DNA of 64,000 nucleotides from Dongia mobilis. Its GTDB lineage: Bacteria; Pseudomonadota; Alphaproteobacteria; Dongiales; Dongiaceae. The stretch lies in contig NZ_SNYW01000011.1 of the NCBI RefSeq assembly GCF_004363235.1, forward strand, positions 62,001-126,000, given 5' to 3'. The notes beneath the pieces are model-generated. The model searched no databases. It was not told the origin of the DNA and saw only the letters and a list, made by a program, of their open reading frames with translations. The position numbers and the translations under genes were made by a program. Position 1 is the first letter of the stretch. Every line of letters starts with the position of its first letter. This document shows positions 10,011 to 30,160 of this stretch, in pieces.

Positions 10011-10023
10011 GGCAGTCTTCTCG

Positions 10024-11052: not shown

Positions 11053-11138
11053 TGTTTCCTCCCGTTGCTTCATTTGGTTGTTCGTCATCGTGATGTGATC
11101 CGCGTCGGCAGGATGACGCTGCCGGCGCGCGAGGTAGT

Positions 11139-11966: not shown

Positions 11967-12034
11967 GATATCCTCCCGTGATCGGCCGCGACTTCTTGTC
12001 GATCCGGGTCCGGCGTCGCAGGGCCGGCCCAGTT

Positions 12035-12047
12035 ATTGTCATACAAT
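12035..12047 (-). promoter_or_regulatory. Perfect GntR/FadR-type operator ATTGT-N3-ACAAT
   Basis: A 13-base perfect palindrome, ATTGTCATACAAT, matches the TNGTNNNACNA pattern typical of FadR-subfamily GntR regulators. It is the only such perfect site I saw in the intergenic region ahead of the GntR gene, and it lies between the putative promoter and the GTG start. Repression by the product of the adjacent gene is the natural inference. Confidence 0.7.
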
Positions 12048-12050
12048 ATG

Positions 12051-12077
12051 CTTAAATGCCTGCCGGCGTCTCGTCAA
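12051..12077 (-). promoter_or_regulatory. Candidate sigma-70 promoter of the GntR operon
   Basis: On the minus strand TTGACG (12077-12072) is followed after 15 bases by TTTAAG (12056-12051). The -35 match is good; the -10 match and the spacing are mediocre. The operator palindrome begins just downstream, where a repressor would block initiation, which adds some support. Confidence 0.35.
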
Positions 12078-12199
12078 GACAGCGTTTTCATTTCTTCCAG
12101 CGGGGTTGAACCGCGACACCGACCATGCTCTATCCCGGCGGGACTTTCGCGCTTTTTCAAGGCGCATTTTTCCGGGCACAAGGATCGGGGACAAGGATC

Positions 12200-13813
12200 A
12201 TGGCAACCTGTGGCGAATTGCTGGTTCAGTTGCTCGAGGCCTATGGCGTCGACCTGGTGTTCGGGATCCCCGGTGTGCATACCGTCGAGCTCTATCGCGG
12301 CCTGCCAATGACCCGGATCCGCCATGTGACGCCGCGCCACGAACAGGGTGCGGGCTTCATGGCCGACGGCTATGCCCGCGTCTCCGGCAAACCGGGCGTC
12401 TGCTTCATCATCACCGGCCCCGGCATGACCAATATCCTGACCGCCATGGGCCAGGCCTATGCCGATTCGGTGCCCATGCTGGTGATCTCGAGCGTCAACC
12501 GGACCGAGGAACTGGCGATGGGTGACGGGCGGCTGCATGAACTACCCTCGCAGCGCAACCTGGTGGCCGGCGTCGCCGCTTTCAGCCATACCCTGCTGCG
12601 GCCGGAACAACTGCCCCAGGTATTGGCCCGCGCCTTTGCCATCTTCCGCAGCGGCCGGCCGCGCCCGGTCCACATCGAAATCCCCATCGACGTCATCACC
12701 ATGCAGGTGGCGGCCAGGGACATCGTGGCACCGCGCAACATTCCCCTGGCGCCGGCGCCGCGCCGGGCAGAACTGGAACGGGCCGTCGCCTGGCTGCGCG
12801 ACGCCAAATCGCCGCTGATGGTTTTGGGCGGCGGTGCCGCCGACGCTGCCGAAGCGGCACGGTCACTGGCCGAGCACCTTGACGCGCCGGTGATCCATAC
12901 CGCCAATGCCAAGGGCATCCTGCCGCCGGGCCACCCCTTGCGCGCCGGCGAAAACATGGCCTATCCGCCGATCCATCAGGCGATCCGCGAGGCGGATGTG
13001 GTGCTGGCCGTGGGCTCGGAATTCGGCGAGACCGAAATGTATCCCGATCCGAAGCCCTTCGTGTTCGACGGCAAGCTCATCCGCATCGACATCGACCCCG
13101 AGCAATTGGTGCGCGGCTTCGGTGCCGATCTGCCGATCGTCGCGGATGCCGGCGCGGCGCTGGCCGAGATCAACCGCGCGCTGGGCATCGCCGCCACCGC
13201 GGCCAACGGAGACACGCCCGGCGCCCGGCGCGCGGCGGCAATCCGCCAGGCAGCGAAAAAGCATTGGTGGCCGGCGGTGCATCGCCACCAGAAGATCATC
13301 GAGGCAGTGAGCGCGGCCCTCCCCGACATGATCCTGGTGGGCGATTCCGCCGAGCATGTCTATGCGCTCAACCAGAGCTATGAGGCGCCGCGGCCGCGCT
13401 CCTATTTCAGTTCCTCGACCGGCTATGGCACGCTGGGCTATGGCCTGCCAGCCGGCCTCGGCGCCAAGCTCGCCGCCCCCGACCGCCCGGTGGTGGTACT
13501 GGCCGGCGATGGCGGACTGCAATTCACCATCGGGGAGCTGGCGGCGGCAGTCGAGGCCGAAGTGCCGCTGATCGTCCTGCTGTGGAACAATGACGGCTAT
13601 GGCGAGATCAAGAACTACATGGTCGGGCGCCAGATCCAGCCGATCGGCGTCGACATCTTCACGCCCGATTTCCAGACCATCGCCAAGGGCTTCGGCTGGG
13701 AAGCGCGGCGCCCGGACAGCTATGCGGCGCTCGGCGCGGAGATGAAGTCGGCAGCCGCGCGCAACAGGCCCACCATCATCGAACTGCGCGCCGACGATCC
13801 CTGGATCGCCTGA
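12200..13813 (+). CDS. Thiamine diphosphate-dependent 2-oxoacid decarboxylase (AruI / acetolactate-synthase-like)
   Basis: A 537-residue enzyme with the three-domain ThDP fold. Visible are the activating glutamate in RHEQGAGFMADGYARVSG near residue 50, the central Rossmann-like domain, and the ThDP-Mg motif GDGGLQFTIGELAAAVE ending in WNNDGYGEIKN near residue 460. The N-terminus VFGIPGVHTVELYRGL and PSQRNLVAGVAAFSHTL resemble proteins annotated as 5-guanidino-2-oxopentanoate decarboxylase (arginine transaminase pathway). An acetolactate-synthase-like role is the alternative. The ATG at 12200 was chosen for its AAGGAT site and the conserved start of the fold; a longer frame begins near 12125. 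It stands alone between two sugar operons, transcribed away from the GntR gene. Confidence 0.8.
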   Translation: MATCGELLVQLLEAYGVDLVFGIPGVHTVELYRGLPMTRIRHVTPRHEQGAGFMADGYARVSGKPGVCFIITGPGMTNILTAMGQAYADSVPMLVISSVNRTEELAMGDGRLHELPSQRNLVAGVAAFSHTLLRPEQLPQVLARAFAIFRSGRPRPVHIEIPIDVITMQVAARDIVAPRNIPLAPAPRRAELERAVAWLRDAKSPLMVLGGGAADAAEAARSLAEHLDAPVIHTANAKGILPPGHPLRAGENMAYPPIHQAIREADVVLAVGSEFGETEMYPDPKPFVFDGKLIRIDIDPEQLVRGFGADLPIVADAGAALAEINRALGIAATAANGDTPGARRAAAIRQAAKKHWWPAVHRHQKIIEAVSAALPDMILVGDSAEHVYALNQSYEAPRPRSYFSSSTGYGTLGYGLPAGLGAKLAAPDRPVVVLAGDGGLQFTIGELAAAVEAEVPLIVLLWNNDGYGEIKNYMVGRQIQPIGVDIFTPDFQTIAKGFGWEARRPDSYAALGAEMKSAAARNRPTIIELRADDPWIA

Positions 13814-14134
13814 TCGCCGGACCGCCAGGGACACAAGCGGGGACACAAGCGGCCGGCACGCCCTGCCATAGGCGCCGGCTGGGCCGTCGCGCGCGCAGCC
13901 GGGCAATAGTCCCAAGTCGCTGGGTGGAAACGGCCCCTCGGCCAGAATCCCGTCGCAACTGAAATTTATTTCATTGAACGCAATTTTTGCCATTTCGGTT
14001 GACAGGCGCATTGTTCATTCGCTACTGACTCGCTTGCGCAAGAAAATTTGCGCCATGAAAAATATTGCATCCATGGTCGAGAGTTGCGACGCTCGACAGC
14101 AAGAGCCAACAAAAAGTTCATTCAGGAGGAAACC
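13814..14134 (+). promoter_or_regulatory. Promoter/operator region of the polyol operon
   Basis: This 321-base spacer has no credible gene. Its second half is AT-rich. TTGACA (13999-14004) is followed after 16 bases by GCTACT, a weak -10. Just downstream lies the inverted repeat GCGCAA-GAAAAT-TTGCGC (14036-14053), overlapping the perfect palindrome TTGCGCAA (14034-14041). This is a good operator candidate for the SorC-family regulator encoded at 17808. AGGAGGAAACC (14124-14134) is the strong ribosome site of the binding-protein gene. The first half contains the 12-base duplication. Confidence 0.5.
13829..13852 (+). repeat. Perfect 12-base tandem duplication
   Basis: GGACACAAGCGG occurs twice head to tail, immediately after the ThDP-enzyme gene. 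No function is evident; it looks like a recent slippage duplication in the intergenic spacer. Confidence 0.8.
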
Positions 14135-15154
14135 ATGAGACGGCTTGGATTTGCCGGGGCGATCGCCTCGGCGGTGACGGCGGCGATGCTGGCGACAGCG
14201 GGCGGCGCCGCGGCCAACAGCAAGTTCCAGTGCGAACCGGGCGAAACCTACATCATGAACGTGATGGTCTCGGCCCATCCCTATTGGGTGCCGGTCTATC
14301 AGGGTTTCAAGCAGGCGGCCGAGGCCATGGGCTGCGAGACCATCTTCTCGGGCACGCCGGATTACGACATCACCAAGCAGATCGCCTCCTTCGAGCAGGA
14401 TCTGGTAAAGCAGCCGGCCGGCATCCTGCTGCACCCGATGCAGTCCGATCCCTTCATCGAGCCCATCAACCGGGCCATCGAAAGCGGCGTCGACGTGGTC
14501 ACGTTCGCGGCGGATTCACCGAAATCGAAGCGGACCGCCTATATCACTTCGGACAACCTCGCCGAGGCCAGGTTTGCCGCCGAGGAAATCGTCAAGCAGG
14601 TCGGCGACAGCGCCGAATATGCGGTTCTGGAAAATCCGGGCCAGAGCAACCATGACCTGCGCGTGACGGCTCTCATTGCCTATATGGAACAGAACTACCC
14701 GAACATGAAGCTGGTCGGGCGCCAGGCCACGAACCAGGACACCAGTGCCGCCTATCGGGCAACCGCCTCGATCCTGCAGGCCAATCCCAATCTGGCGGCA
14801 ATCTGGATTCCCGAGGCCGGCTCGGCCGAAGGCGCGGTGGCCGCCATCCTGGAGGCCAAGGCCAAGGTCCTCATCATGCATGCCGACATCACGCCGACCA
14901 CGCTCGAGCACATCAAGGCCGGCAATATCCACATGGCGCTCAACCCGAACCAGGGCGTCCAGGGCTTCATGGGATTCATCGCGACCTACCTGGCGGCGCA
15001 TCCCGACATGTTCGACCCGTTCAACGACTACAAGGTGTCGGGCTATAATCCGATGCAGATTCCGTTCATCGACAACGGGTTCGCGGTGATCACCAAGGAA
15101 AACGCGGATTCCTTCGACCTCAACAAGTACATGGAAGGCCGGGACCCGAATTGA
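14135..15154 (+). CDS. Periplasmic substrate-binding protein of second sugar/polyol ABC importer
   Basis: A 339-residue type-I periplasmic binding protein. The signal peptide is MRRLGFAGAIASAVTAAM with probable cleavage after GGAAA near residue 27. The mature part carries MVSAHPYWVPVYQGFKQAAE, the opening strand-helix of ribose-type binding proteins, and GILLHPMQSDPFIEPINRAI. The ATG was chosen because a consensus AGGAGG precedes it. It opens a nine-gene plus-strand operon. The ligand is not deducible; it differs clearly from the binding protein at 10024, and overall similarity to LsrB is at fold level only. Confidence 0.9.
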   Translation: MRRLGFAGAIASAVTAAMLATAGGAAANSKFQCEPGETYIMNVMVSAHPYWVPVYQGFKQAAEAMGCETIFSGTPDYDITKQIASFEQDLVKQPAGILLHPMQSDPFIEPINRAIESGVDVVTFAADSPKSKRTAYITSDNLAEARFAAEEIVKQVGDSAEYAVLENPGQSNHDLRVTALIAYMEQNYPNMKLVGRQATNQDTSAAYRATASILQANPNLAAIWIPEAGSAEGAVAAILEAKAKVLIMHADITPTTLEHIKAGNIHMALNPNQGVQGFMGFIATYLAAHPDMFDPFNDYKVSGYNPMQIPFIDNGFAVITKENADSFDLNKYMEGRDPN

Positions 15155-15227
15155 GGGCCCGCCGCGCTAATTCCGGTGTCGCCCGCTCCTTTCACGGCCC
15201 GGGCGGCACCGGCGCGGCAAGCAACGC

Positions 15228-16760
15228 ATGAAGACCACCATGGAAAACGATCTCGTCCTGAAACTCTCCGGGGTCAGCAAGTCCTTCGGCCCGGTCCAGG
15301 CCCTGCGCGGGGTCGATTTCGACCTGCGCCGGGGGGAGATCCACGCCATTGCCGGCGAGAACGGCGCCGGAAAGTCCACGCTGATGAACATCGTCGACGG
15401 CATCATCCGGCCCGACAGCGGCGAGATCTACATTGACGACGAATTGGTCGAGATCACGTCGCCGGCAGTGGCGCAACGCCTCGGCATCGGCCTGGTGCAC
15501 CAGGAGATCGCCCTCTGCCCCGACGTCTCGGTGGCGGAGAATATCTGCATGTGCGCGACCAGCATCAGCCGGTCGCTGCTGATGGATTTCCGAGCCATCG
15601 AGGCAAAGGCGAAGGCCGCCCTCGGTACGCTCTGCGACGTACCCCCCACGGCCCTGGTTCGCGACCTCTCGATCTCGCAGCAGCAGTTGGTCGAGATCGC
15701 CAAGGCCCTCACCCTGGATTGCCGCGTGCTGATCCTGGACGAACCCACCGCGGCGCTGACCGAGCGGGAGGCGAAGATCCTGTTCGGCATCATGCGCCGC
15801 CTGGCCGACCAGGGCATCTCCATCATCTACATCACGCACCGCATGGCCGAGATCTTCGAGAACTGCGACCGGGTGACGGTGTTTCGGGACGGCCAATACG
15901 TGATGACCCGCGACATCCGCGAAATCACGCCCGGCGACGTCGTCGCCGCGATGGTCGGGCGCGTCATCGACAACCTCTATCCCGCGAAGCTGGCGGCGCA
16001 CGAACGATCGGACGAAGTCATTCTCGCGGTGCGGAACCTGACCGACCGGGCGCGCTACAGGAACGTGACCTTCGACCTCAAGAAGGGCGAGATCCTGGGC
16101 CTCGCCGGCCTGATCGGCGCCGGGCGCAGCGAAATCGCCAGGGGAATCTGCCGGCTGGAAGGCGAGACCAGCGGCGAGGTCGAACTCTACGGCCGGGCGC
16201 TCCGCCTGCGCCATTATCGCGACAGCATCGACCACGGCATCGTCTATCTATCCGAGGACCGCAAGGGTGACGGGATCTTCCTCGACATGTCGATCGCCGC
16301 GAATGTCTCGGCACTTTCGCTCGAGCTGGTCGCCACCAGATTCGGCATCGTTGACGAGAGGCGCGAGCAGGACCTGGCGACGCGGCTCGGCCGCTCGCTC
16401 AACCTCAGATACGGCGATATCCGCCAGGCGGCCTCGGCATTGTCCGGCGGCAACCAGCAGAAGGTCGCCATCGCCAAGATGCTCTCGGTCAACCCCAAGG
16501 TGATCTTTCTGGACGAGCCGACCCGCGGCGTGGACGTCGGCGCCAAGGCGGAAATCCACCGCATCCTGCGCGCCCTGGCACAAGACGGCGTCGGCATCCT
16601 GGTCATCTCGTCGGAATTGCCGGAGCTGATCGGCCTGTGCGACCGTGTGCTGGTGGTGCGCGAAGGCGAGATCACCGGCGAAGTAGCCGGCGACAGGATG
16701 ACCGAGAACAACATCATGTACCTTGCCTCGATCGAGGCCGGGCGCGCCGCAACGGCATGA
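15228..16760 (+). CDS. Sugar ABC transporter ATP-binding protein
   Basis: A 510-residue protein with two nucleotide-binding domains. The first has Walker [13 protein letters not shown], the signature variant [15 protein letters not shown], and Walker [12 protein letters not shown]. The second has the family-typical degenerate P-loop ([15 protein letters not shown]), signature [15 protein letters not shown], and Walker [17 protein letters not shown]. Unlike the ATPase at 8538, its second Walker B keeps the glutamate. An ATG 12 bases downstream (15240) is an alternative start. The last bases overlap the permease start, indicating coupling. Confidence 0.92.
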
Positions 16761-17785
16761 GGATGGAAATGCGGACCTACGGAGCGGAAGAGACCGGTGC
16801 GGCACAGCGCAAGCCGGCCGGAATCGCAGGCGCCCTGCGGCAGATGCTCGGCATGCGCGAGGTGGGCCTGATCGCCATCATCCTGCTGCTGTTCATCGTC
16901 ATGTCCTTCGCCTCGCCCTATTTCCTGACCTGGGTCAACATGCGGGCCATGGCCATGGCCTTTGCGGTCGAGGGCATCGTCGTCGTCGGCATGACCATCC
17001 TGCTGATATCGGGCGGTATCGACCTGTCCGTTGGCTCGGTCACGGCGCTGGCCATGGTCATCGCCGGCCTGCTCTTCCTCGCCGGATTCGATCCCTGGAC
17101 GGCATCGGCCATTTCGATCCTGGCCTGTCTTGCCATCGGCGCCGCCATGGGATTCTTCGTGACGCGGATCGGCCTCCATCACTTCATCGTCTCGCTGGCG
17201 GTGATGGTGATCGCCCGCGGCATCTGCCTGCTCGGCACGGGCGGGCGACCGCTGGGCCTCTATACCCTGCCGCCGGAATTCAAGTTCATCGGCCAGGGCT
17301 CGCTCGGCGTCGTGCCGGTCGTCATCGTCATCTTCGTCGTGGTCGTCATCGCCTTCGACTTCATGCTGCGCAAGACCACCATGTTCCGCAAGGTGTTCTA
17401 TACCGGCAGCAACGAAAAGGCGGCAGCCTATTCCGGCATCCGCACGAAGAAGGTCGTGTTTCTGACCACCACGCTCTGCTCAGGCCTCTGCGGCGTGGCC
17501 GGGATCATCTATATGGCGCGCTTCGGGTCGGCACAGCCGACCTTCGGCATGGGTATGGAACTCAATGTCATCGCGGCGGCGGTGATCGGCGGCGCCAGTC
17601 TTTCTGGCGGCGTCGGCACGATCTTCGGCGCAATCCTGGGCGCCATCCTGCTGTCGGTCGTCTCGAGCTCGCTGGCGCTCCTCGACGTGTCCGTCTACTG
17701 GCAGGACATCATCCGCGGATCGATCCTGCTGGCGGCGGTCACCATCGACCATTTCATAAACAAGAGGCGGAAGCAGAGGGTGTGA
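16757..17785 (+). CDS. Ribose-type ABC transporter permease
   Basis: A 342-residue RbsC-family membrane protein with about eight to ten hydrophobic helices. Family motifs are [20 protein letters not shown] and [20 protein letters not shown]. Three in-frame ATG codons (16757, 16763, 16769) are close together; the first overlaps the ATPase stop as ATGA. It is the only permease gene in this operon, so the channel is presumably a homodimer. It carries an N-terminal cytoplasmic extension of about 35 residues before the first helix. Confidence 0.9.
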
Positions 17786-17807
17786 CCCACCTTCGCCGGG
17801 CACGAAC

Positions 17808-18788
17808 ATGGCTGCAAAAAAAGAAGATTTCGAGATGATCCGCCAGATCCATACGGTCCTGGTCCTGCATTTCATCGAAGGGATGAAGCAGTCGGACATC
17901 GCGCAGAAGCTCAACCTCTCGACCTCCAAGGTGAATCGCCTGATCACCCAGGGCCGCTCGCTTGGCATGGTGAAGATCGCCATCGAAAGCCCCTATCAGG
18001 GCCTGGTCGACCTGGAGCAGGGCCTGATCGATGCCGCGCATCTGCAGAACGCAATCGTCGCCCCGACCGTTTCCGGCAACCCGGACACGACATTGCAGCA
18101 GGTCGGCCGCGCCGCGGCGAACCATCTGCTGGAGACCATCCGTGACGGCGACGTCATCGCCGTCACCGGCGGCAAGGCCGTAAGTGCCGTGGCGGAGAAC
18201 CTGCAGCCCGAGCGCAAGTTCAAGGTGACGGTGGTGCCGCTGACCGGCGGCGTCCAGGGAAAATATTACACCGATGTCAATCACCTGGCGACGCGGATCG
18301 CCGAGCGGCTGGGCGGCATGGCAATGCAGGTGCATGCGCCGCTTTTCGCCGATAGCCGCGAGCAGCGCGACATGCTGATGGGCATGGGCTCGATCCGGGA
18401 AGTCTTCGACCTCGCCCGCCGGGCAGCCGTTGCGGTGGTCGGGATCGGGTCGATCCTGGCGCCGGGATCGAGCTATTTCGACCTGCACCCGATGCCCAAT
18501 CCCGGCCGCAAGCAACTGGTCAAGAGCGGTGTCATCGGCGAATTCCTGGCCCATCTGATCCGGCGTGACGGGACGCTGGCGGATTATCCGCTCAATTCCA
18601 GGCTGGTCGCCCTGGAGCCCGCGGAACTCAAGGCCTGCCCGCGCACCATCGGTGTCGCCGCCGGCCCGGAAAAGGTCGAGCCGATTCAGGCGGTGCTCAA
18701 CGGACGCCTGCTCAAATCATTGATCGTCGACGAGGAAACCGCCAACAAGGTCCTCGAAACAATTGGAGATTCCAGAAATGTTGCATGA
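17808..18788 (+). CDS. SorC-family (sugar-binding) transcriptional regulator
   Basis: A 326-residue regulator with an N-terminal helix-turn-helix (GMKQSDIAQKLNLSTSKVNR, residues about 26-45) and the large SorC/DeoR-type sugar-phosphate-sensing domain (GDVIAVTGGKAVSAVAENL and VVGIGSILAPGSSYFD). Members include LsrR (phospho-AI-2), EryD (erythritol) and SorC; they usually sense a phosphorylated intermediate made by the operon's kinase, which fits the FGGY kinase at 22439. It sits inside the operon it probably controls. The end overlaps the next gene by 11 bases. The palindrome at 14036-14053 is its likely operator. Confidence 0.9.
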   Translation: MAAKKEDFEMIRQIHTVLVLHFIEGMKQSDIAQKLNLSTSKVNRLITQGRSLGMVKIAIESPYQGLVDLEQGLIDAAHLQNAIVAPTVSGNPDTTLQQVGRAAANHLLETIRDGDVIAVTGGKAVSAVAENLQPERKFKVTVVPLTGGVQGKYYTDVNHLATRIAERLGGMAMQVHAPLFADSREQRDMLMGMGSIREVFDLARRAAVAVVGIGSILAPGSSYFDLHPMPNPGRKQLVKSGVIGEFLAHLIRRDGTLADYPLNSRLVALEPAELKACPRTIGVAAGPEKVEPIQAVLNGRLLKSLIVDEETANKVLETIGDSRNVA

Positions 18789-19785
18789 CATGCTGACCCG
18801 CAAGATCGGCCAGTCCGGCATCGACGCCTCGGTCGTCGGGCTCGGCACCTGGGCGATCGGCGGCTGGATGTGGGGTGGCACGAACGAGGCGGAGTCGATC
18901 GAGGCGATCCGCGCGTCGATCGACGTCGGCGTCTCCCTGATCGATACCGCGCCTGCTTATGGCCAGGGGCTATCCGAGGAGATCGTCGGCAAGGCGATCA
19001 AGGGAAGGCGCGACCAGGTCGTGCTGGCCACAAAATGCGGCCTCGTCTGGCATGTCCGCAAGGGCAACCACTTCTTCGACTATGACAGCGGGCCGGTACA
19101 TCGCCATCTCGGCAGGGACTCCATCCTCTACGAGGTCGAAAAGAGCCTGAATCGCCTCGGCACCGACTATATCGACCTCTACATCACGCATTGGCAGGAT
19201 GCGACCACGCCGATCGCGGAAACGATGGAGGCGCTGGCGCAGCTGAAAAGCCAGGGCAAGATCCGGGCCATCGGCGCCAGCAACGTCTCGCGCGACGATC
19301 TCGACACCTATCTGTCGGTCGCGCAACCAGGCGCGCAACTCGACGCCATCCAGGAAGAGTATTCCATGGTCAAGCGCGATCTCGAACAGACGCTGCTGCC
19401 GACCTGCATCGCCCGGAACGTCGCGACGCTCAGCTATTCCTCGCTCGCCCTCGGCCTGCTCTCGGGCAGGATCGGGCCGGATCGTGCCTTCACCGGCGAC
19501 GATCTGCGCAAGGACAATCCGCGCTTTTCGCTTGCCAACCGCCAGAAGGTACAGCGCCTGATGGATGCCATCGCCCCGATCGCCGCAACGCATGACGCGA
19601 CGCTGGCGCAGATCGTGATTGCCTGGACCCTGCAGCAGCCGGGCATCACGTTTGCGCTGTGCGGCGCGCGCAATGCCGCCCAGGCCCGCGAGAACGCCGC
19701 GGCCGGGCGCATCCGGCTGACGGCGGCCGATCTGGCAGCCATCAGCGACGCCGCGAAAACACATCTGACCAATCTCGACGCCTGA
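18778..19785 (+). CDS. Aldo/keto reductase
   Basis: A 335-residue TIM-barrel NADPH-dependent oxidoreductase. The catalytic tetrad is visible: D and Y in IDTAPAYGQGLSE, K in VLATKCG, H in LYITHWQD. The C-terminal cofactor site region reads FALCGARNAAQARENAAA. The ATG at 18778 was chosen because TTGGAG lies nine bases upstream; it overlaps the regulator's end by 11 bases. In this operon the enzyme may interconvert a polyol and an aldose or ketose, or reduce the aldehyde released by the aldolase. The substrate is unknown. Confidence 0.88.
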   Translation: MLHDMLTRKIGQSGIDASVVGLGTWAIGGWMWGGTNEAESIEAIRASIDVGVSLIDTAPAYGQGLSEEIVGKAIKGRRDQVVLATKCGLVWHVRKGNHFFDYDSGPVHRHLGRDSILYEVEKSLNRLGTDYIDLYITHWQDATTPIAETMEALAQLKSQGKIRAIGASNVSRDDLDTYLSVAQPGAQLDAIQEEYSMVKRDLEQTLLPTCIARNVATLSYSSLALGLLSGRIGPDRAFTGDDLRKDNPRFSLANRQKVQRLMDAIAPIAATHDATLAQIVIAWTLQQPGITFALCGARNAAQARENAAAGRIRLTAADLAAISDAAKTHLTNLDA

Positions 19786-19858
19786 CCAGGCGAACGAAGA
19801 GTCTGGGTCGCCAGCAGAGAGTCAACCGCCGGCCATGTGGCCGGCGAACAGGGAAGTC

Positions 19859-21601
19859 ATGCCTGAACAGCGCAGCAGCAATCTAGCCAGGATGCAGGCC
19901 AGGATGCGGGAGGCCGGCAGCTTCGACGCGATCGTCGTGGGCGGCGGCATCAACGGCATCGGCGTCTTCCGCGAGCTGGCCCTGCAGGGCCTCGCGGTGT
20001 TGCTGGTAGAGCGCAACGATTTCTGCTCCGGCTGCAGCGCCGCCCCGTCGCGGATGATCCATGGCGGCCTGCGTTACCTCGAGAACGGCGAGTTCGGCCT
20101 GGTGAAGGAATCGCTGCGGGAACGGGATGCGCTGCTCCTCAACGCGCCGCATCTGGTCCACCCCCTCCCTACCACGATCCCGATCAAGTCGGTCTTCTCG
20201 GGAACACTGAATGCCGCCATCGGCTTCCTCGGCGGCAGCTCTCGCCCGGCAGAACGCGGGGTGCTGCCGGTGAAGATGGGACTGCTGCTCTATGACTGGG
20301 TGACGCGGCATCGCCGGCTGACGCCGCGTCACGCGCTGCGCAGCGCGGCGGAAACGGCGCGGCAATGGCCGGCGCTCACCCGAGACCTGCGCTACTCCGC
20401 TACCTATTTCGACGCCTGGATCAGCCATCCGGAGCGGCTGGGCGTGGAACTGATCCTGGACGCGCAGCACGAGACACCCGATGCCGTCGCCCTCAACTAT
20501 GCCGAGATCGAACGCCACGGCGATGACTTCGCCATTGTCGACCGGCTGACCGATGCAAGGACCACCGTTTCGACGCGTCTTGTCATCAACGCCACCGGCG
20601 CCTGGCTGGACGAGACCAACCGCCGCCTCGCCGGCCCTGCCTTGCCGGCAGAACCCTTCGTCGCCGGTACCAAGGGATCGCATCTCGTCATCGACCATCG
20701 CGGATTGCATGACGCGCTCAACGGCCACATGATCTTCTTCGAGAATTCCGACGGCCGGATATGCATCGTCTTTCCCTATCTCGGCAATGTGCTGGCCGGC
20801 GCCACCGACATCCGCGTTGCCAAGGCGACGCGGGTGCGCTGCGAGGACCAGGAGCGCGACTATATCCTCGATTCCTTGCGCCTGGTGTTTCCGGAAATCG
20901 AGGTGCGGGCGTCCGATGTGGTGTTCAGCTTCAGCGGCATCCGCCCCCTGCCGAAAAGCGACCATGATTTCACCGGCCGAATTTCACGCGGCCATTCCGT
21001 CGAGAAACTTGCCGGCACGCCACCACAACTCTGCATGGTGGGCGGCAAGTGGACGACCTTCCGCGCCTTTGCCGAAGAGACCGCCGATGCCGCCCTGCGG
21101 GAACTGGGCCGCCCGCGACGCCGGGACAGCCTGGCGCTGCCGATCGGAGGCGGGGTGGATTTTCCGGCCGATCCAGCGGTGCTGGCGCGCGAAATCGCCG
21201 CGAGAGGCGACATGACGCCGCAACGGGCCGCACACCTGGTCGCGGCCTATGGCTCGCGGGCGCGCCTGGTCGCTGAATTCTGCCGCGACTATTCCGGGGA
21301 TGCGCCGCTCGGTTCAAGCACCTGCATATCGACCGGCGAAATCGCCTTCCTGATCCGCCGCGAGTTCGCGGTCACCCTTGCCGATCTGGTACTGCGGCGG
21401 ACGACGCTCGCGATCCGGGGCATACTGTCGGCAGGCCAGATCGACCGCCTTGCCGCAACCGCCGCCGCCGAACTCCGCTGGGATGGCGATCGCTGCAAGC
21501 GCGAGAAAGCCGAACTGATCGCCGAGCTTGACGCCTATCATGGCGTCACACCGGCAATGCTCGTTGAGAGAGACAAAGGAGAGAAAGCATCATGCGGCTG
21601 A
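19859..21601 (+). CDS. FAD-dependent glycerol-3-phosphate dehydrogenase-family protein (GlpD/EryB-like)
   Basis: A 580-residue flavoprotein. The N-terminal dinucleotide-binding motif is DAIVVGGGINGIGVFRELAL (residues about 24-43), followed by MIHGGLRYLENGEFGLV, typical of GlpD, and the late motif VGGKWTTFRAFAEETAD. A C-terminal helical domain (after about residue 400) is present. Family members oxidise sn-glycerol-3-phosphate or, as EryB, erythritol-4-phosphate, passing electrons to quinone at the membrane. With an FGGY kinase and an aldolase in the same operon, a polyol-phosphate substrate is likely. The ATG at 19859 follows AGGGAAG. Confidence 0.85.
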   Translation: MPEQRSSNLARMQARMREAGSFDAIVVGGGINGIGVFRELALQGLAVLLVERNDFCSGCSAAPSRMIHGGLRYLENGEFGLVKESLRERDALLLNAPHLVHPLPTTIPIKSVFSGTLNAAIGFLGGSSRPAERGVLPVKMGLLLYDWVTRHRRLTPRHALRSAAETARQWPALTRDLRYSATYFDAWISHPERLGVELILDAQHETPDAVALNYAEIERHGDDFAIVDRLTDARTTVSTRLVINATGAWLDETNRRLAGPALPAEPFVAGTKGSHLVIDHRGLHDALNGHMIFFENSDGRICIVFPYLGNVLAGATDIRVAKATRVRCEDQERDYILDSLRLVFPEIEVRASDVVFSFSGIRPLPKSDHDFTGRISRGHSVEKLAGTPPQLCMVGGKWTTFRAFAEETADAALRELGRPRRRDSLALPIGGGVDFPADPAVLAREIAARGDMTPQRAAHLVAAYGSRARLVAEFCRDYSGDAPLGSSTCISTGEIAFLIRREFAVTLADLVLRRTTLAIRGILSAGQIDRLAATAAAELRWDGDRCKREKAELIAELDAYHGVTPAMLVERDKGEKASCG

Positions 21602-22434
21602 GCACCAAGGCCCGGATGAACCGGCTGTTCAACAAGGGCGGCTGCCTCGACGTCGCAATCGATCACGGCGTCTGCAATGAGCCCGGTTTCCTGGTAGGGC
21701 TAGAAGACATGGCAAGGGTGGTCGGCACCCTGGTCGAGGCGCGGCCTGATGCCATCCAGATGGCCTATGGCCAGGCCGACCTGCTGCAGGCCCGCCCGGA
21801 ACGCGACAAGCCGGCACTGGTCATGCGCATCGACATGGGCAATCCCTATAACGCACAGCGGCACCGGGTCATGTGGTCGATGCTGCAGAACCACGACGAG
21901 CCCATCATCGGCGCGCTGGAAATGGATGCCGCCTGCGTCGTCGTTAATCTGTTCATGCTGCCGGACGAGCCGGAGCTGTTCCGGCAATGCGTCGAGAACA
22001 TCTCCCGCGTCCGCGCCGCCTGCCACAAGTATGGCATGCCGCTGATGATCGAACCGCTGGTGATGCTGCCCAACGAAGTCAGGGGCGGCTATCAGGTCGA
22101 CGGCAACGCCGAAAAGATCGTGACCCTGGTGCGCCTAGCCGCGGAAATGGGCGCCGACATCATCAAGGCGGACCCGACCGACGACCCGGAGGATTTCCAC
22201 CGCGTGGTCGAGGCGGCGCGCGTGCCGGTGCTGGTCCGGGGCGGCGGCAAGGAGGAGCTGAAGGCCGTGCTCGCCAAGTCTGCTAAATTGATGGCGCAGG
22301 GTGCCAAGGGTATGGTCTACGGCCGCAACATCTACCAGCATGCAAATCCGAAGGCGGTCGTCCGCGCGCTGATGGCGATGATCCATCAGGGCGCCGGCGG
22401 CGACGAGGCCTGGGACATCTATCAGAGGGGCTGA
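21592..22434 (+). CDS. DhnA/LsrF-type class I aldolase
   Basis: A 280-residue (beta/alpha)8 protein of the class I archaeal-type fructose-bisphosphate aldolase group, which includes LsrF. Matches include LSTKARMNRLFNKGGCLDVAIDHG at the N-terminus (fewer than twenty shown identical), the Schiff-base lysine region AAEMGADIIKADP, VPVLVRGGGKEE, and GAKGMVYGRNIYQHANP. It starts inside the last codons of the GlpD-like gene (10-base overlap), so the two are probably translationally coupled. It could cleave a ketose phosphate made by the dehydrogenase, giving DHAP and an aldehyde, or act as an LsrF-like thiolase. The choice cannot be made from sequence. Confidence 0.85.
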   Translation: MRLSTKARMNRLFNKGGCLDVAIDHGVCNEPGFLVGLEDMARVVGTLVEARPDAIQMAYGQADLLQARPERDKPALVMRIDMGNPYNAQRHRVMWSMLQNHDEPIIGALEMDAACVVVNLFMLPDEPELFRQCVENISRVRAACHKYGMPLMIEPLVMLPNEVRGGYQVDGNAEKIVTLVRLAAEMGADIIKADPTDDPEDFHRVVEAARVPVLVRGGGKEELKAVLAKSAKLMAQGAKGMVYGRNIYQHANPKAVVRALMAMIHQGAGGDEAWDIYQRG

Positions 22435-22438
22435 TGCC

Positions 22439-23944
22439 GTGACCTATCTGCTCGGCCTGGACGCGGGGAACACGGTCATCAAGGCGGTTCTCTTCGACCG
22501 CAACGGCCGCCAATGCGCCATGCATGCGATGGACGGACATTCACTGACGCCGCAGCCCGGCCATGTCGAGCGGAACCTCGACGAGCTCTGGCGCAATGCC
22601 GGCGCGGCAATCCGCAGCTGCATCGACAAGGCGGGGGTCGATCCAGCGGAAATCGCCGGCATCGGCTGTGCCGGCCACGGCAACGGCCTCTACCTTCTCG
22701 ACCGGGATGGCGGGTCACTTCTCGGTATCCAGTCACTCGACAGCCGCGCCGCCGCCTTGGCCGGGGAATTGACGGCGGCGGCAGGGGACGAATGCCACGC
22801 CATCTGCCTGCAGAAGCCGTGGCCGGCGCAGACACCGACGCTGCTGGCCTGGGTGAAGCGACAGGCACCCGAGCTTTACAGGCGGGCAGGAACCGCCCTG
22901 CTGTGCAAGGATTTCATCGCCTTCAAGCTGACCGGTGAGATCGTCAGCGATCTGTCCGACATGTCCGGCTGTGGCCTGCTGCGCCTGCCTGAGGGGCGCT
23001 ACGACGATGCATTGCTGGCACTCTACGGCCTGTCGGATGCCAAAGCCATGCTGCCGCGCCTGGCCGATCCGGCGGAGGTAATCGGCCGCGTGACGGCGGA
23101 TGCCGCGGCGGCAACCGGTCTTGCGGTCGGCACGCCGGTCATCGCCGGTTTCTTCGACGTCATCGCCAGCGCCATGGGCTCCGGCGTCGTGGCGCCGGGC
23201 GAGGCCTCGATCATCGCCGGAACCTGGTCGATCAACCAGGTCTTTTCAGAGGCCGCCGTCAGGGATTCCAACATCTTCATGGTGGCGAAATTCGGCGACC
23301 GGCGTTTCGTCACGATTGAATCGAGTGCCACGTCGGCGGCCAACCTGGAATGGTATGTGCGCGAGATCGTGGAGCGGTACGGCGCGACCGCGGATCCCTT
23401 CGCCCTCTGCAATGAAAGGGTCGGCGCCATCCGGCCGGCAGCCGACGATCCCCTCTTCCACCCCTATCTCTTCGGCTCCCGCCTCGGCCCGGAATGCCGC
23501 GCCGGTTTCTATGGCCTGGCGGGCTGGCACGGCGACGGCCATCTGCTGCGGGCGCTGTTCGAGGGAGTGATGTTCGAGCACAAGCGGCATGTCGAGGTCC
23601 TGGCGCAAGCCGGGCTGCCCGTCCGCAAGGCGGTGCTCTCTGGCGGCGGTTCGCGCAGCCCGCACTGGCCGCAGATGTTCGCCGACGGCATCGGCATCCC
23701 GGTCGCGACGGCCGAAGCCCGTGAGACCGGGGCCTTGGGCGCCGCGATCGGCGCCGGTGTCGGTATCGGCTTGTTCGACCGCTATGAAACGGGTATCGCA
23801 GCAATGACCCGGCCGCGCGGCAGCTTCCTGCCGGATTCGGGCATGCGTCCCCATTACGACCGGCGTTATGCGCTGTTCGGCCGGGTGACGGAGGCCATGC
23901 GCGGCATCTGGGCGGATCTGGAACGGGAACCGGCACCACGATGA
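22439..23944 (+). CDS. FGGY-family carbohydrate kinase (L-xylulose kinase LyxK-like)
   Basis: A 501-residue sugar kinase with two actin-like domains. N-terminal phosphate loop LLGLDAGNTVIKAVLFD; substrate-side GIGCAGHGNGLYLLD; central VIAGFFDVIASAMGSGV and IIAGTWSINQV with SATSAANLEWYV; and C-terminal ATP site KAVLSGGGSRSPHWPQMFAD. These central segments resemble LyxK and its relatives more than xylulokinase or glycerol kinase; LsrK and EryA are more distant members. The start is GTG at 22439, four bases after the aldolase stop. It should phosphorylate the imported polyol or ketose and make the SorC-regulator inducer. Confidence 0.88.
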   Translation: MTYLLGLDAGNTVIKAVLFDRNGRQCAMHAMDGHSLTPQPGHVERNLDELWRNAGAAIRSCIDKAGVDPAEIAGIGCAGHGNGLYLLDRDGGSLLGIQSLDSRAAALAGELTAAAGDECHAICLQKPWPAQTPTLLAWVKRQAPELYRRAGTALLCKDFIAFKLTGEIVSDLSDMSGCGLLRLPEGRYDDALLALYGLSDAKAMLPRLADPAEVIGRVTADAAAATGLAVGTPVIAGFFDVIASAMGSGVVAPGEASIIAGTWSINQVFSEAAVRDSNIFMVAKFGDRRFVTIESSATSAANLEWYVREIVERYGATADPFALCNERVGAIRPAADDPLFHPYLFGSRLGPECRAGFYGLAGWHGDGHLLRALFEGVMFEHKRHVEVLAQAGLPVRKAVLSGGGSRSPHWPQMFADGIGIPVATAEARETGALGAAIGAGVGIGLFDRYETGIAAMTRPRGSFLPDSGMRPHYDRRYALFGRVTEAMRGIWADLEREPAPR

Positions 23945-25566
23945 ATGCCACCGCAGAGACAGGCGTGCTGGAGGGCGATTACGACTACATCATCGTCGGC
24001 GCCGGAACCGCCGGCTGCGTCCTCGCCAACCGGCTGAGCGAGAATCCGAAGAACCGCATCCTGCTGCTGGAAGCCGGCGGCAGCGACAACTACCACTGGG
24101 TCAACATCCCGGTCGGCTATCTGTTCTGCATCGGCAATCCGCGCACCGACTGGATGATGAAAACGGAAAGCGAGCCGGGCCTCAACGGCCGCGCCCTGGT
24201 CTATCCGCGCGGCAAGGTCCTGGGCGGCTGTACCTCGGTCAACGGCATGATCTATATGCGCGGCCAGGCGGCGGATTACGACCATTGGCGACAACTCGGC
24301 AATCCCGGCTGGAGCTGGGAGGACGTCCTGCCCTATTTCCTGAAATCGGAAGACCATCATGGCGGCGACAGCACCCATCACCGCAGCGGCGGCGAGTGGA
24401 AGGTGGCGCGCCAGCGCGTTTCCTGGGAGATCCTGCGTGCCTTCCAGGAAGCGGCGGCGGAGTTCGATATCATGCCACGTGCCGATTTCAATGACGGCAA
24501 CAATGAAGGCTCCGGCTTTTTCGAGGTCAACCAGAAGAAGGGCGTGCGCTGGAACACGGCCAAGGGCTTCCTGCGCCCGGCCCTGGGCCGCCCCAACCTT
24601 CGGGTCCTGACCGGCGCCCGGACCGACCGCCTGCAGTTCGACGGCAGGCGCGTCACCGGCGTGAAATTCCATCGGCTGGGCCAGTCATATGTCGCGACGG
24701 CACGCGGCGAAGTCCTGCTGGCAGCCGGTGCCATCAATTCCCCCAAGCTGCTGGAACTCTCAGGAATCGGCCGCGGCGAGTTGCTGCGTCGCCATGGCAT
24801 CGACGTGATCCATGACAGCCCCGGCATCGGCGAAAACCTGCAGGACCATCTGCAGATCCGCACGGTCTATCGGGTCAGCAATGCCCGAACCCTCAACACG
24901 CTGGCCAATTCCTGGTTCGGCAAGGCCGCCATGGCGATGGAATACGCCCTCTTCCGCAGCGGCCCGCTCTCCATGGCACCGAGCCAGTTCGGCATGTTCA
25001 CGAAATCCGACCCGGCCCTGGCGACGCCGGACCTCGAATACCACGTCCAGCCGCTGTCGACCGACCGGCTGGGCGACCCGCTGCATCCCTTTCCCGCCAT
25101 CACGGTCTCGGTCTGCAATTTGCGTCCCGACAGCATCGGCACCTGCCATATCATCGGCCCGGATCCGGACCGGCAGCCGGCGATCCGGCCGAACTACCTG
25201 GCAACCGAGGCCGACCGCGCCGTGGCCCTGCGCGCGGTACAGCAGGTCCGTCAGATCATGACCGCGCAAACCTTGCTGAAATACCGGCCGGCGGAAATCC
25301 TCCCCGGGCCGCAGGTATCGGCCGATTCCGACCTGCTGCATGCCATCGGCAACATCGCCACCACCATTTTTCATCCAGTCGGCACTTGCCGCATGGGGTC
25401 GGATCCGGCCGCCGTGGTCGGGCCGGATTTGCGCCTCCAGGGCCTTGACGGCATTCGTGTCGTCGACGCCTCGATCATGCCCCGCATCGTTTCCGGCAAT
25501 ACCGCCGCGCCGGTGATCATGATCGCGGAAAAGGCCGCGGACATGATCCGGCGCGGCAATGCCTGA
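23941..25566 (+). CDS. GMC-family FAD-dependent oxidoreductase (choline dehydrogenase-like)
   Basis: A 541-residue flavoenzyme. The N-terminal ADP-binding motif is YIIVGAGTAGCVLANRL, with the GMC signature YPRGKVLGGCTSVNGMIYMR, a second signature GAINSPKLLELSGIG, and the C-terminal active-site histidine in HPVGTCRMGSDP with SGNTAAPVIMIAEKAADMI. GMC enzymes oxidise alcohols to aldehydes or ketones. No signal peptide is seen, so it should be cytoplasmic or membrane-peripheral. Its ATG overlaps the kinase stop (ATGA). It ends the operon and faces the RND genes convergently. Its role may be oxidation of a free polyol in parallel with the kinase route. Confidence 0.88.
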   Translation: MNATAETGVLEGDYDYIIVGAGTAGCVLANRLSENPKNRILLLEAGGSDNYHWVNIPVGYLFCIGNPRTDWMMKTESEPGLNGRALVYPRGKVLGGCTSVNGMIYMRGQAADYDHWRQLGNPGWSWEDVLPYFLKSEDHHGGDSTHHRSGGEWKVARQRVSWEILRAFQEAAAEFDIMPRADFNDGNNEGSGFFEVNQKKGVRWNTAKGFLRPALGRPNLRVLTGARTDRLQFDGRRVTGVKFHRLGQSYVATARGEVLLAAGAINSPKLLELSGIGRGELLRRHGIDVIHDSPGIGENLQDHLQIRTVYRVSNARTLNTLANSWFGKAAMAMEYALFRSGPLSMAPSQFGMFTKSDPALATPDLEYHVQPLSTDRLGDPLHPFPAITVSVCNLRPDSIGTCHIIGPDPDRQPAIRPNYLATEADRAVALRAVQQVRQIMTAQTLLKYRPAEILPGPQVSADSDLLHAIGNIATTIFHPVGTCRMGSDPAAVVGPDLRLQGLDGIRVVDASIMPRIVSGNTAAPVIMIAEKAADMIRRGNA

Positions 25567-25603: not shown

Positions 25604-28600
25604 TCAGACCTCCGATGGCGTCACATGGTCCGCCAACCGCCCGGCCCCGGCTCGGCGTTCGACGATGGCGCGGATCACCAGATAGAAGACCGGCGTCAGC
25701 AGCAGGCCGAAGAAGGTGACGCCCAGCATGCCGGCAAAGACCGCGACGCCCATGGCGTGGCGCATCTCGGCGCCGGCGCCGGTCGAGAGCACCAGCGGCA
25801 CCACGCCCATGATGAAGGCGATCGAGGTCATCAGGATCGGCCGCAGGCGCAGGCGGCAGGCCTCCAGCACGGCCTGCAAACGGTCCATGCCCTCCTGCTG
25901 CTTGTCCTTGGCGAACTCGACCAGCAGGATCGCGTTCTTGCAGGCAAGGCCGACCAGCACGATGAGCCCGATCTGGGTGAAGATATTGTTGTCGCTGCCG
26001 GCCTGGATCACACCGATAATGGCGGAGAGCAGTGTCATCGGCACGATCAGGATGACCGCCAGCGGCAGGCTCCAGCTTTCGTATTGCGCTGCCAGCACCA
26101 GGAAGGCGAGCAGCACGCAGAGCGGGAAGACGAAGAGCGCCGTGTTGCCCGCCAGGATCTGCTGGTAGGTCAGCTCAGTCCATTCGAAGGTCATGCCGTT
26201 CGGCAGTTCGCGCTCGAGCAGGGCCGCCATGGCCGCCTCCGCCTGGCCGGAGGAATAACCCGGCGCCGGCCCGCCATTGATCTCGGCAGTCGCGTAGCCG
26301 TTATAGTGCATGACGCGGTCGGGGCCGGCGCTGTCGCTTACCTTGACGAAGGTCGACAGCGGCACCATCTCGCCCGCGGCATTGCGCACCTTCAACTGGC
26401 CGATCTGGGACGCGTCCAGGCGGAATTGCTGGTCGGCCTGGATGTTGACCTGGAAGGTCCGGCCGAAGCGGTTGAAGTCGTTGACATAGAGCGAGCCGAG
26501 ATAGGCCTGCAGCGTTTCGAAGATCGCGCTGATCTCGACGCCATGGGTCTTCGCCTTGTCGCGGTCGATGTCGGCGTCGATCTGCGGCACATTCACCTGG
26601 TAGCTGGAAAAGAGCCCCGCCAGTTCCGGCACCTCCCGGCTCTTGGCCAGGATATTCTGGGTTTCGTGATAGAGCTCCTCGTAGCCGAACCCGCCCCGAT
26701 CCTGGATCTGCAGGCGAAAGCCGCCGATGGTGCCGAGGCCCATCACGGGGGGCGGCGGGAAGATGGCGACGAAGGCGTCCTGGATCGCCGCGAACTCGCC
26801 ATTGAGCGCACCGGCGATGGCGCCGGCCGACATGGCCGGGTCGGCGCGCTCGTCGAAGGGCTTCAGGGTCACGAAGACGATGCCGCTGTTGGGCGCGTTG
26901 GTGAAGCCGTTGATGGAAAGCCCCGGAAAGGCGACCGTGCTCTCGACGCCGGGATGATTGAGGGCGCGGGCCGACATGTCCTTGATCACATCCTCGGTGC
27001 GGTCGAGGGTGGCGGCGTCGGGCAGCTGCGCGAAGGCCACCAGATATTGCTTGTCCTGCTGCGGCACGAAACCGGTCGGCGTCGTGGTGAAGCCGTGATA
27101 GCCGAGCGCCACCAGGCCGACATAGACCGCCAGCGCCACGCCGCTCACCCGCAGGATGCGCCGCACGGTGCCGACATAGCCCCGGCTGGCCCGGTCGAAG
27201 AAGCGGTTGAAGGGGCGGAACAGCCAGGCGCCCAGCAGCCAGTCGAGGCCGCGCGAGAACCAGTCCTTCCTCTCGTCATGGCCTCGCAGCAGCAGGGCGG
27301 CAAGGGCCGGCGACAGGGTCAGTGAATTGAAGGCCGAGATCACCGTCGAGATGGCAATGGTGAGCGCGAACTGCCGGTAGAACTGACCGGTGAGGCCGGA
27401 AATGAAGGCGGTCGGCACGAAGACCGCGCAAAGAACCAGCGCCGTCGCGACGATCGGCCCCGTCACCTCGCGCATGGCGCGCTTGGTCGCTTCGATCGGC
27501 TTCAGGCCAAGGGCAATGTTGCGCTCCACATTCTCCACCACGACGATGGCGTCGTCGACCACGATGCCGATCGCCAGCACGAGGCCAAACAGGGACAGGG
27601 CGTTGAGCGAGAACCCGAATAGGTGCATCACTGCAAAGGTGCCGATCAGCGAAACCGGCACGGCGGCCAGCGGGATGATCGAGGCGCGCCAGGTTTGCAG
27701 GAACAGGATCACCACCAGGACGACCAGAACGATCGCTTCCAGCAGGGTATGGACCACCGCCTCAATCGAGCCGCGCACGAAGATGGTGGGATCATAGACG
27801 ATCGAATAGTCGACCCCCTCCGGGAAAGCCTGCTTCAACTCCGCCATCTTGGCGCGCACCTGGTCCGAAATGGCGATGGCGTTGGACCCGGGACGCTGGA
27901 AGATCGGAATGGCGACGGCCGGCTGGTTGTCGAGCAGCGAACGCAGGGCATACTGGCTGGAGCCCAATTCGATCCGTGCGATGTCGCGCAGGCGGGTGAT
28001 CTCGCCATTTTCGCCGACATGGATGATGACATTGGCGAACTCGTCCTCGGTGACCAGGCGGCCCTGGGTATTGATCGAGAGCTGGAAATCGGATTCGCCC
28101 GGCGCCGGCGGCGCTCCCAGCGCACCCGCCGCCACCTGGCGGTTCTGTTCGCGGATCGCGGCGGCGACATCGGTCGCGGTGAGGCCGCGCGATGCCACCT
28201 TGTTGGGATCCAGCCAGACGCGCAGCGAATACTCGCCAAGGCCGAAGAGCTGCACGTCGCCGACGCCGTCGAGCCGCGCCAGCTCGTCCTTCACGTTGAG
28301 CAGCGCATAGTTCGACAGATAGAGCATGTCATAGCGCTCGTCCGGCGACTTTAAATGCACCACCATGGTGAGGTCCGGCGACGATTTGTCGGTGGTCACG
28401 CCGAGGCGCTGCACCTCCTCCGGCAGTTTCGGCATGGTGCGGGTGACGCGGTTCTGCACCTGGACCTGGGCGATGTCGAGGTCGGTGCCGAGGGCGAAGG
28501 TGATGGTCAGCGTCATCTTGCCGTCGGCGGTCGATTGCGAGGACATGTAGAGCATGTTCTCGACACCGTTGATCGCCTGTTCCAGCGGCGAGGCAACGGT

Positions 28601-28783: not shown

Positions 28784-28809
28784 GGCGGTTGCTTTCCGGA
28801 AGGACGGTG

Positions 28810-30021: not shown

Positions 30022-30160
30022 GCCCCCACTCCTCGATCTCAAATCGATGCGTTGAATGGGAAGGAATGTGTGCTGTCGCTTGTGCACCTGCGAATAGAAC
30101 GCGGTGAAGGTCACTATCGACCGGGATGATGATTGCCGTTTCCGGCCGGATTCCGGGCGG

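Follow-up and report, generated by a model that had tools for sequence, protein, structure and literature searches.

A widespread nine-gene operon of Dongia mobilis with a proposed kinase, GlpD-like dehydrogenase, and aldolase route for polyol catabolism

The Operon and Its Proposed Pathway

The window analyzed here is a 64,000-nucleotide stretch of Dongia mobilis DNA (assembly GCF_004363235.1, which consists of 14 contigs; contig NZ_SNYW01000011.1, positions 62,001 to 126,000), and our subject is a set of nine forward-strand genes at window positions 14135-25566 (Table 1). It was found that these nine genes form one conserved operon, the conservation of which is far from chance. In our judgment it probably serves, under local regulation, the catabolism of a polyol with at least four carbons, degraded by a route that leads from a kinase through a GlpD-like dehydrogenase to an aldolase. 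The operon appears to be real, widespread, and as yet unnamed, and the outline of its chemistry, as read from the encoded proteins, seems convincing.

In the proposed pathway, a ribose-type ATP-binding cassette (ABC) importer would take up the polyol, and a kinase of the FGGY family would phosphorylate its terminal carbon to give a polyol 1-phosphate. The GlpD-like flavoprotein would then oxidize C2 to yield a 2-ketose 1-phosphate and pass the electrons to the quinone pool, a step modeled on the action of GlpD on sn-glycerol 3-phosphate. A class I aldolase, acting through a Schiff base on K192, would cleave the ketose 1-phosphate to dihydroxyacetone phosphate (DHAP), which would enter glycolysis, and an aldehyde holding the remaining n minus 3 carbons. 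The freed aldehyde may be reduced or oxidized by an aldo/keto reductase (AKR), together with a GMC oxidoreductase or an extra medium-chain dehydrogenase/reductase (MDR) alcohol dehydrogenase in loci that have one. A SorC-family regulator would act at the palindrome TGAAATTTATTTCA, probably with a phosphorylated intermediate as the effector, as is usual in this family.

The substrates and reactions are predicted from protein families, gene presence, and active-site residues. The chain of import, phosphorylation, oxidation, and cleavage is self-consistent because the product of a GlpD-type enzyme has a ketone next to the phosphorylated carbon, and such a product suits a DHAP aldolase because this arrangement is what it cleaves. 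The same order of steps had been proposed from the letters of the window (hereafter, the sequence-only reading), and it is the order that best fits the folds, the active-site residues, and the gene linkage in close loci. A narrower version, which we offer tentatively and with some doubt, is that the substrate is a pentitol and that the route bypasses the pentose phosphate pathway: phosphorylation at C1, quinone-linked oxidation at C2, and cleavage to DHAP and glycolaldehyde would be followed by the action of the AKR or GMC protein.

Conservation and Distribution of the Gene Set

Genomes, one per species, were scanned with a three-sequence aldolase alignment as the query; at least 521 relatives were obtained, and the best 80 loci were kept. 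A gene was counted as present if it had at least 45% identity, was on the same strand, and lay within 2.5 kb of the place expected from the window. A search for the same nine-gene neighborhood had been suggested as a check of the sequence-only reading, and 55 of the 72 loci that were spanned in full had the complete set in place. The aldolase gene was in place in 80 of 80 testable loci, the AKR and GlpD-like genes each in 79 of 79, the kinase gene in 77 of 77, and the SorC gene in 78 of 79. The corresponding values were 70 of 76 for both the periplasmic sugar/polyol-binding protein (SBP) and the transporter ATPase, 71 of 77 for the permease, and 63 of 74 for the GMC gene.

More distant loci, the gene content of which was taken from tblastn, keep the gene core at aldolase identities down to 64%. 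Loci L116, L120, and L123 are without the GMC gene, and L117 has only the AKR, GlpD-like, aldolase, and kinase genes. Because distant loci shed GMC, AKR, or importer genes, the core consists of the GlpD-like enzyme, the aldolase, and the kinase, usually accompanied by the SorC regulator and the AKR. The AKR is near-core, and the GMC gene is accessory because 11 of the 74 close loci that could be tested do not have it, nor do several of the distant loci. Both proteins had been assigned to the handling of free aldehyde and alcohol forms; we keep these roles as predictions, that of the GMC protein only as an accessory one. In several loci an MDR zinc-type alcohol dehydrogenase gene stands between the kinase and GMC genes, and the three copies tested are listed in Table 1.

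Judging from the record titles of the named genomes among the best 80 loci, the carriers are mostly Alphaproteobacteria, with genera including Mesorhizobium, Rhizobium, Agrobacterium, Devosia, Roseibium, Ruegeria, Pacificispira, and Pelagibius. The hosts are soil, plant-associated, and marine bacteria, and gene order is kept among them. The closest named relative among the matches listed was a Dongia metagenome-assembled genome (aldolase 93% identical). With D. mobilis itself counted in each case, matches at an E value of 0.001 were present in 5 of 61 relatives, two of the five at 32-33% identity; at the level of the order, 4 of 17 genomes had matches, 2 of them close orthologues; and at 1e-40 the class gave matches in 8 of 385 genomes and the phylum in 10 of 398. 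The distribution is patchy. The operon had been called undescribed, and it does seem to be unnamed, but it is widespread rather than rare.

The operon is plasmid-borne in Rhizobium etli, Alloyangia, Qingshengfaniella, R. leguminosarum, and Sinorhizobium meliloti, and the copies in model strains are on p42b of R. etli CFN 42 and pSymB of S. meliloti 1021. In S. meliloti CP140948.1 (H112), an ISRm12-type IS5 transposase is listed inside the operon span. Two sets of S. meliloti genes were discarded as candidates for the operon copy: SMb20484-20488, a predicted psicose transporter with an isomerase, is the wrong locus, and SMb20854-20856 was not accepted. The copy of strain 1021 may correspond to about SMb20496-SMb20504, a guess made from the numbering. 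SMb20504 is annotated as a sugar-binding protein (PMC12542648).

A Conserved Palindrome Upstream of the Operon

The sequence-only reading made no mention of a palindrome upstream of the SBP gene. To evaluate TGAAATTTATTTCA as an operator, the 300 bases preceding the start of the SBP gene were taken from 71 regions, namely the window and 70 of the best 80 loci; L010 was left out of the count since its SBP gene is on the minus strand. As a result, TGAAATTTATTTCA or a near copy was found in 71 of 71 regions (32 exact, 24 at 13/14, and 15 at 12/14), whereas shuffled controls, one per region, reached at most 10/14. Inside the loci, 96 sites of at least 12/14 fell in the 29.4 kb of upstream zones, in comparison to 6 in the other 1.40 Mb. 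By this locus-wide count 70 of 71 loci were positive, and the exception, L035, is a contig that begins inside the SBP gene. The D. mobilis genome contains one exact TGAAATTTATTTCA, the one in Table 1, and two further sites that differ from it at two positions; with the reversed control pattern, the matches numbered 0 and 1, respectively. The form TGAAATATATTTCA precedes the SBP gene in R. etli, R. leguminosarum, and S. meliloti.

The regulator itself scored well above the PF04198 cut-off (204.9 bits against 27). The site is backed by conservation, and the SorC protein is predicted to bind TGAAATTTATTTCA. Promoter-like sites were no more frequent than expected by chance, and terminator-like sites were less frequent.

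An Importer That Can Be Replaced

By protein family, the SBP, the ATPase, and the single permease make up a ribose-type ABC importer. In 6 of the 80 loci (L027, L029, L055, L067, L079, and L085), this importer is swapped for another, which is the same in all six and has two permeases; relative to L027, its SBP is 80-89% identical, its ATPase 73-83%, and its permeases 78-87%. The L027 ATPase and permease are only 34% and 30% identical to the window counterparts. The SorC regulator and the enzymes are retained in these loci, and all six have a site of 12-13/14 about 94-167 bp upstream of the replacement SBP gene. It therefore appears that the two importers share a single operator and a single regulator. 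That an unrelated importer should follow this operator and precede these enzymes is as expected if both importers carry one compound.

The Kinase and the GlpD-like Dehydrogenase

Family alignments were built from copies of more than 45% identity and 85-120% of the window length, giving 65 (GMC) to 82 (aldolase) sequences; L009 was omitted, as it is the same stretch as L011. Trees comprised 12 to 31 sequences, with 6 operon copies plus references in the first round and 14 plus references in the second.

The kinase exceeded both FGGY cut-offs (FGGY_N 164.1 bits, FGGY_C 89.1 bits). It is 31.8% identical to LyxK, its closest relative among the Escherichia coli references, and 27.4% identical to XylB. 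In the tree it fell into a clade of operon copies (support 0.998) that lies beside a further FGGY kinase from the erythritol loci of rhizobia (0.882), and LyxK, XylB, EryA, LsrK, FucK, and GlpK were all outside the operon clade. Assignment as LyxK or a xylulokinase was rejected, the TIGR01312 score being 243.6 bits against a cut-off of 380.25 and the LyxK identity being low. The Asp of its FFDVIASA stretch aligns with the XylB aspartate that we take to be catalytic.

The dehydrogenase likewise grouped with operon copies (support 0.995). In its alignment, the equivalents of E. coli GlpD R54, Y55, H233, R317, R332, and K354, which we take to be the ligand contacts in the E. coli GlpD structures, did not vary in any of the 81 operon copies. 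The residue after the lysine equivalent to K354 is Trp in all operon copies, Leu in GlpD, and Ile in EryB. The protein thus retains the domains of the GlpD fold (DAO and DAO_C) and the GlpD ligand residues. As GlpD itself (NF008899) it scored 270.5 bits against a cut-off of 360 and was rejected; this cut-off is strict, being passed by a single one of 14 control genomes. Elsewhere in its genome D. mobilis encodes a canonical GlpD (786.7 bits) and a canonical GlpK (703.1 bits), both over their cut-offs, so the operon copy is not needed for glycerol, and a glycerol operon was rejected on these grounds.

These results bear on an alternative in which a ketose or aldose is imported, the kinase makes a ketose 1-phosphate, the aldolase cleaves it, the AKR reduces a glyceraldehyde-like product, and the GlpD-like enzyme oxidizes a re-phosphorylated glycerol-type side product. 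LyxK, the nearest E. coli reference of the window kinase, is a ketose kinase, the AKR is present in every testable close locus, and distant aldolase cousins go with an isomerase and a PfkB-type kinase. However, the genome already has GlpK and GlpD, the GlpD-like clade is apart from GlpD, and two loci of one genus (L010 and L118) have no AKR yet keep the GlpD-like gene. We consider this alternative rather unlikely.

The Aldolase

The aldolase of the proposed polyol route scored 189.1 bits with PF01791 (DeoC/LacD class I; cut-off 23.8), and D24, E154, K192, G244, and R245 were invariant in 82 of 82 sequences. E154 lies in an IEP motif, as in the ketose-1-phosphate aldolase YihT of E. coli, and it may be the proton shuttle. 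A Foldseek search with the predicted aldolase structure gave MJ0400, LsrF, and an archaeal fructose-bisphosphate (FBP) aldolase as the top matches, and YihT, a sulfohexulose-1-phosphate aldolase, and a LacD Glu163Gln mutant lower down. From these ranks and the shared IEP motif, it follows that the enzyme is a DhnA scaffold carrying a LacD/YihT-type acid residue.

A subfamily of aldolases with 51-53% identity (L096, L121, and L122) is encoded near a sugar kinase, which is PfkB in L121 and L122, and a Gfo/Idh/MocA dehydrogenase; in L096 and L121 an ABC importer and a protein of the D-lyxose isomerase type are encoded there as well. The context of these relatives appears to be again one of sugar phosphates.

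Observations That Weigh Against the Route

Several observations count against the kinase, GlpD-like dehydrogenase, and aldolase route, or against a polyol as its substrate. The SBP model had AraP (6sw4), CbpA (7x0g), and 3g1w as its nearest fold neighbors, and no single ligand was indicated by this fold search: the 50 neighbors listed were 17-29% identical and mixed pentose, hexose, and unknown-ligand proteins. Because these neighbors are remote and mixed, we only infer that the ligand is a polyol. The aldolase model had a moderate predicted local distance difference test score (pLDDT) of 72, and the other four models had scores of 47 to 58. MJ0400 and archaeal FBP aldolase have what we take to be a catalytic-loop Tyr, and this residue had no counterpart in the alignment. 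Both the AKR and the GMC gene are missing from L010 and L118. No palindrome of at least 11/14 was found in L120, and none of at least 12/14 in L117. In L120, a locus from outside the class, identities were 70% for the aldolase and 57% for the AKR, and the kinase (31%) and GlpD-like enzyme (45%) fell outside the operon clades; the tree branches of these two proteins are unreliable because their frames were taken too long (909 and 853 aa).

In addition, a pair of FGGY kinase and GlpD-like genes can do without a nearby aldolase gene, because some pairs had none in 9 kb flanks: those of Agrobacterium fabrum and Martelella, which adjoin another importer and a SorC-type gene, and those of Shinella, Paracoccus, and R. 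tumorigenes plasmids, which lie beside an ery-type importer. These pairs are consistent with an alternative in which, by analogy with pentitol loci, the kinase and GlpD-like enzyme make a ketose 5-phosphate for the pentose phosphate pathway, while the aldolase acts on a different compound. Against this, the aldolase, GlpD-like, and kinase genes were together in every testable locus of the best 80, and the aldolase and GlpD-like genes of the window overlap by 10 bp; we regard it as improbable. In S. meliloti Rm41 (pRM41A), there is a GlpD-like gene without an adjoining FGGY kinase gene, with an aldolase, two sugar kinases, an importer, and a regulator nearby.

Gene Layout and Neighboring Genes

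All nine genes named in the sequence-only reading were present at its coordinates, as judged from open reading frames and profile matches. Their ends had been described as mostly overlapping; overlaps occur at four of the eight junctions (4, 11, 10, and 4 bp), and the others are gaps of 73, 22, 49, and 4 bp. Among the models listed for the nine proteins (for the ATPase, 25 of 190), no curated NCBIfam cut-off was reached, and the proteins are thus without clear orthology to a named enzyme; the best model for the AKR was YdjG, at 282.7 bits against a cut-off of 550.

Table 1. Features of the operon and related loci. Positions are those of the window unless a locus is given.
Feature	Position	Strand	Evidence or remark
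Palindrome TGAAATTTATTTCA, proposed SorC operator	13960-13973	.	conserved upstream of SBP gene
SBP: periplasmic sugar/polyol-binding protein (Peripla_BP_4)	14135-15154	+	PF13407, E 5.6e-51
Sugar ABC transporter ATPase, two ABC domains	15228-16760	+	PF00005, two stretches
Single ribose-type ABC permease (BPD_transp_2)	16757-17785	+	PF02653, E 4.1e-36
SorC-family regulator, helix-turn-helix and sugar-binding domain	17808-18788	+	PF04198, E 1.7e-60
AKR: aldo/keto reductase, YdjG-like	18778-19785	+	PF00248, E 1.5e-70
GlpD-like FAD dehydrogenase, proposed polyol-1-phosphate 2-dehydrogenase	19835-21601	+	PF01266 (DAO), PF16901 (DAO_C)
DhnA/DeoC-type class I aldolase, proposed ketose-1-phosphate aldolase	21592-22434	+	PF01791, E 1.2e-55
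FGGY kinase, own clade	22439-23944	+	PF00370 and PF02782
GMC oxidoreductase, accessory	23941-25566	+	PF00732 and PF05199
MDR alcohol dehydrogenase	L016:12361-13371, L027:12412-13422, L055:12317-13363		TIGR02817 over cut-off (L016 copy)

On the 3′ side the neighbor is convergent, its end being 37 bp away: an AcrB-type resistance-nodulation-division (RND) pump and a HlyD-type fusion protein are encoded on the minus strand at 25604-30492. On the 5′ side, positions 8538-13813 hold minus-strand genes for an ABC ATPase, a Peripla_BP_4 binding protein, and a GntR/FCD regulator and a plus-strand gene for a thiamine pyrophosphate-dependent enzyme, perhaps another cluster for the use of a sugar or acid.

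Comparison with Known Systems

The annotated records call the operon proteins "glycerol-3-phosphate dehydrogenase/oxidase" and "class I fructose-bisphosphate aldolase", names that are unsupported by the evidence here. A literature search gave no paper on this gene set among the matches listed, which is weak evidence of absence because subscription journals were mostly outside its coverage. In the passages available from PMC9007349, PMC11103875, PMC4961836, PMC4581636, PMC11302038, and PMC2597717, the operon is not named, and it is absent from the passages on polyol loci in PMC3599248. If the substrate were known, annotations would be corrected in probably hundreds of genomes, given the at least 521 relatives of which the best 80 were examined, and a pathway that has parallels in biotechnology could be gained. 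Among model rhizobia and marine Alphaproteobacteria the operon is common, and TGAAATTTATTTCA offers a direct handle for induction assays.

The sequence-only reading had framed the operon as a mixture of lsr-like and ery-like parts, but the kinase and dehydrogenase are in clades of their own. It was correct that LsrG and the ery isomerases are missing from the nine genes. The operon resembles E. coli lsr (lsrK lsrR lsrACDB lsrF lsrG) in having a SorC-family regulator, a ribose-type importer, an FGGY kinase, and a DhnA-fold class I aldolase, features that would suit an operon for autoinducer-2 uptake and processing. In contrast, lsr has two permeases and LsrG, and the window operon has one permease and GlpD-like, AKR, and GMC proteins, the GlpD-like enzyme being without an lsr counterpart. 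The kinase, only 26.0% identical to LsrK and in a separate clade, was rejected as LsrK (NF008187, 197.5 bits; cut-off 528). The aldolase, described before as LsrF-type, is 30.2% identical to E. coli LsrF, has a different catalytic loop, with E154 in place of Val, and was rejected as LsrF (NF006081, 100.9 bits; cut-off 297). Membership in lsr was therefore rejected, and autoinducer-2 processing is a most improbable function.

The likeness to the ery loci (eryABCD, eryEFG) and to the S. meliloti erythritol, adonitol, and L-arabitol loci consists of a SorC-type regulator, an FGGY kinase, a GlpD-fold dehydrogenase, and an ABC importer; an FBP aldolase gene occurs in some such loci (PMC3599248). 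The operon might on this basis be an erythritol-type variant with EryA/EryB chemistry on a tetritol, which we consider very unlikely. EryA is 27.8% identical to the window kinase, and EryB, at 28.5% identity to the window dehydrogenase, groups with the GlpD of E. coli (support 1.000 and 0.999) and is nearer to it than to the window enzyme. Moreover, the nine genes have an aldolase gene instead of EryC, TpiB, or RpiB genes, and cleavage of a tetrulose 1-phosphate would yield formaldehyde, for which the set has no enzyme. With no EryA or EryB orthologues, membership in an erythritol operon was rejected, and the ery-like description of the kinase and dehydrogenase could not be upheld.

A close parallel to the FGGY and GlpD-like pair stands beside eryEFG on pRL12 of R. 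johnstonii 3841 (L104:18837-22155), where a second FGGY kinase gene (37.3% identity) and a GlpD-like gene (41.1%) are adjoined by genes for a class II FBP aldolase and a sugar phosphate isomerase; one R. leguminosarum has the same arrangement. This locus differs in its DeoR regulator, its class II aldolase gene on the opposite strand, and its transporter. It is possibly a convergent version of the same pathway, and, if the pentitol route is true, the erythritol-linked FGGY and GlpD-like pairs with a class II aldolase would be such a version.

The aldolase is also similar to the sulfoglycolytic YihT and LacD-type ketose phosphate aldolases, sharing the Schiff-base Lys and, with YihT, the IEP/Glu motif, and a LacD mutant of Glu163 is among its fold matches. 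It differs in that its identity to YihT is only 20.5% and there are no sulfosugar genes among the nine. Finally, the proposed polyol route has a likeness to the L-fucose pathway (FucK/FucA/FucO), which also has a kinase, a ketose 1-phosphate, cleavage to DHAP and an aldehyde, and an aldehyde reductase. In the L-fucose pathway FucI makes a ketose by isomerization and FucA is a class II aldolase, whereas the flavoprotein of the window operon would form the ketone after phosphorylation.

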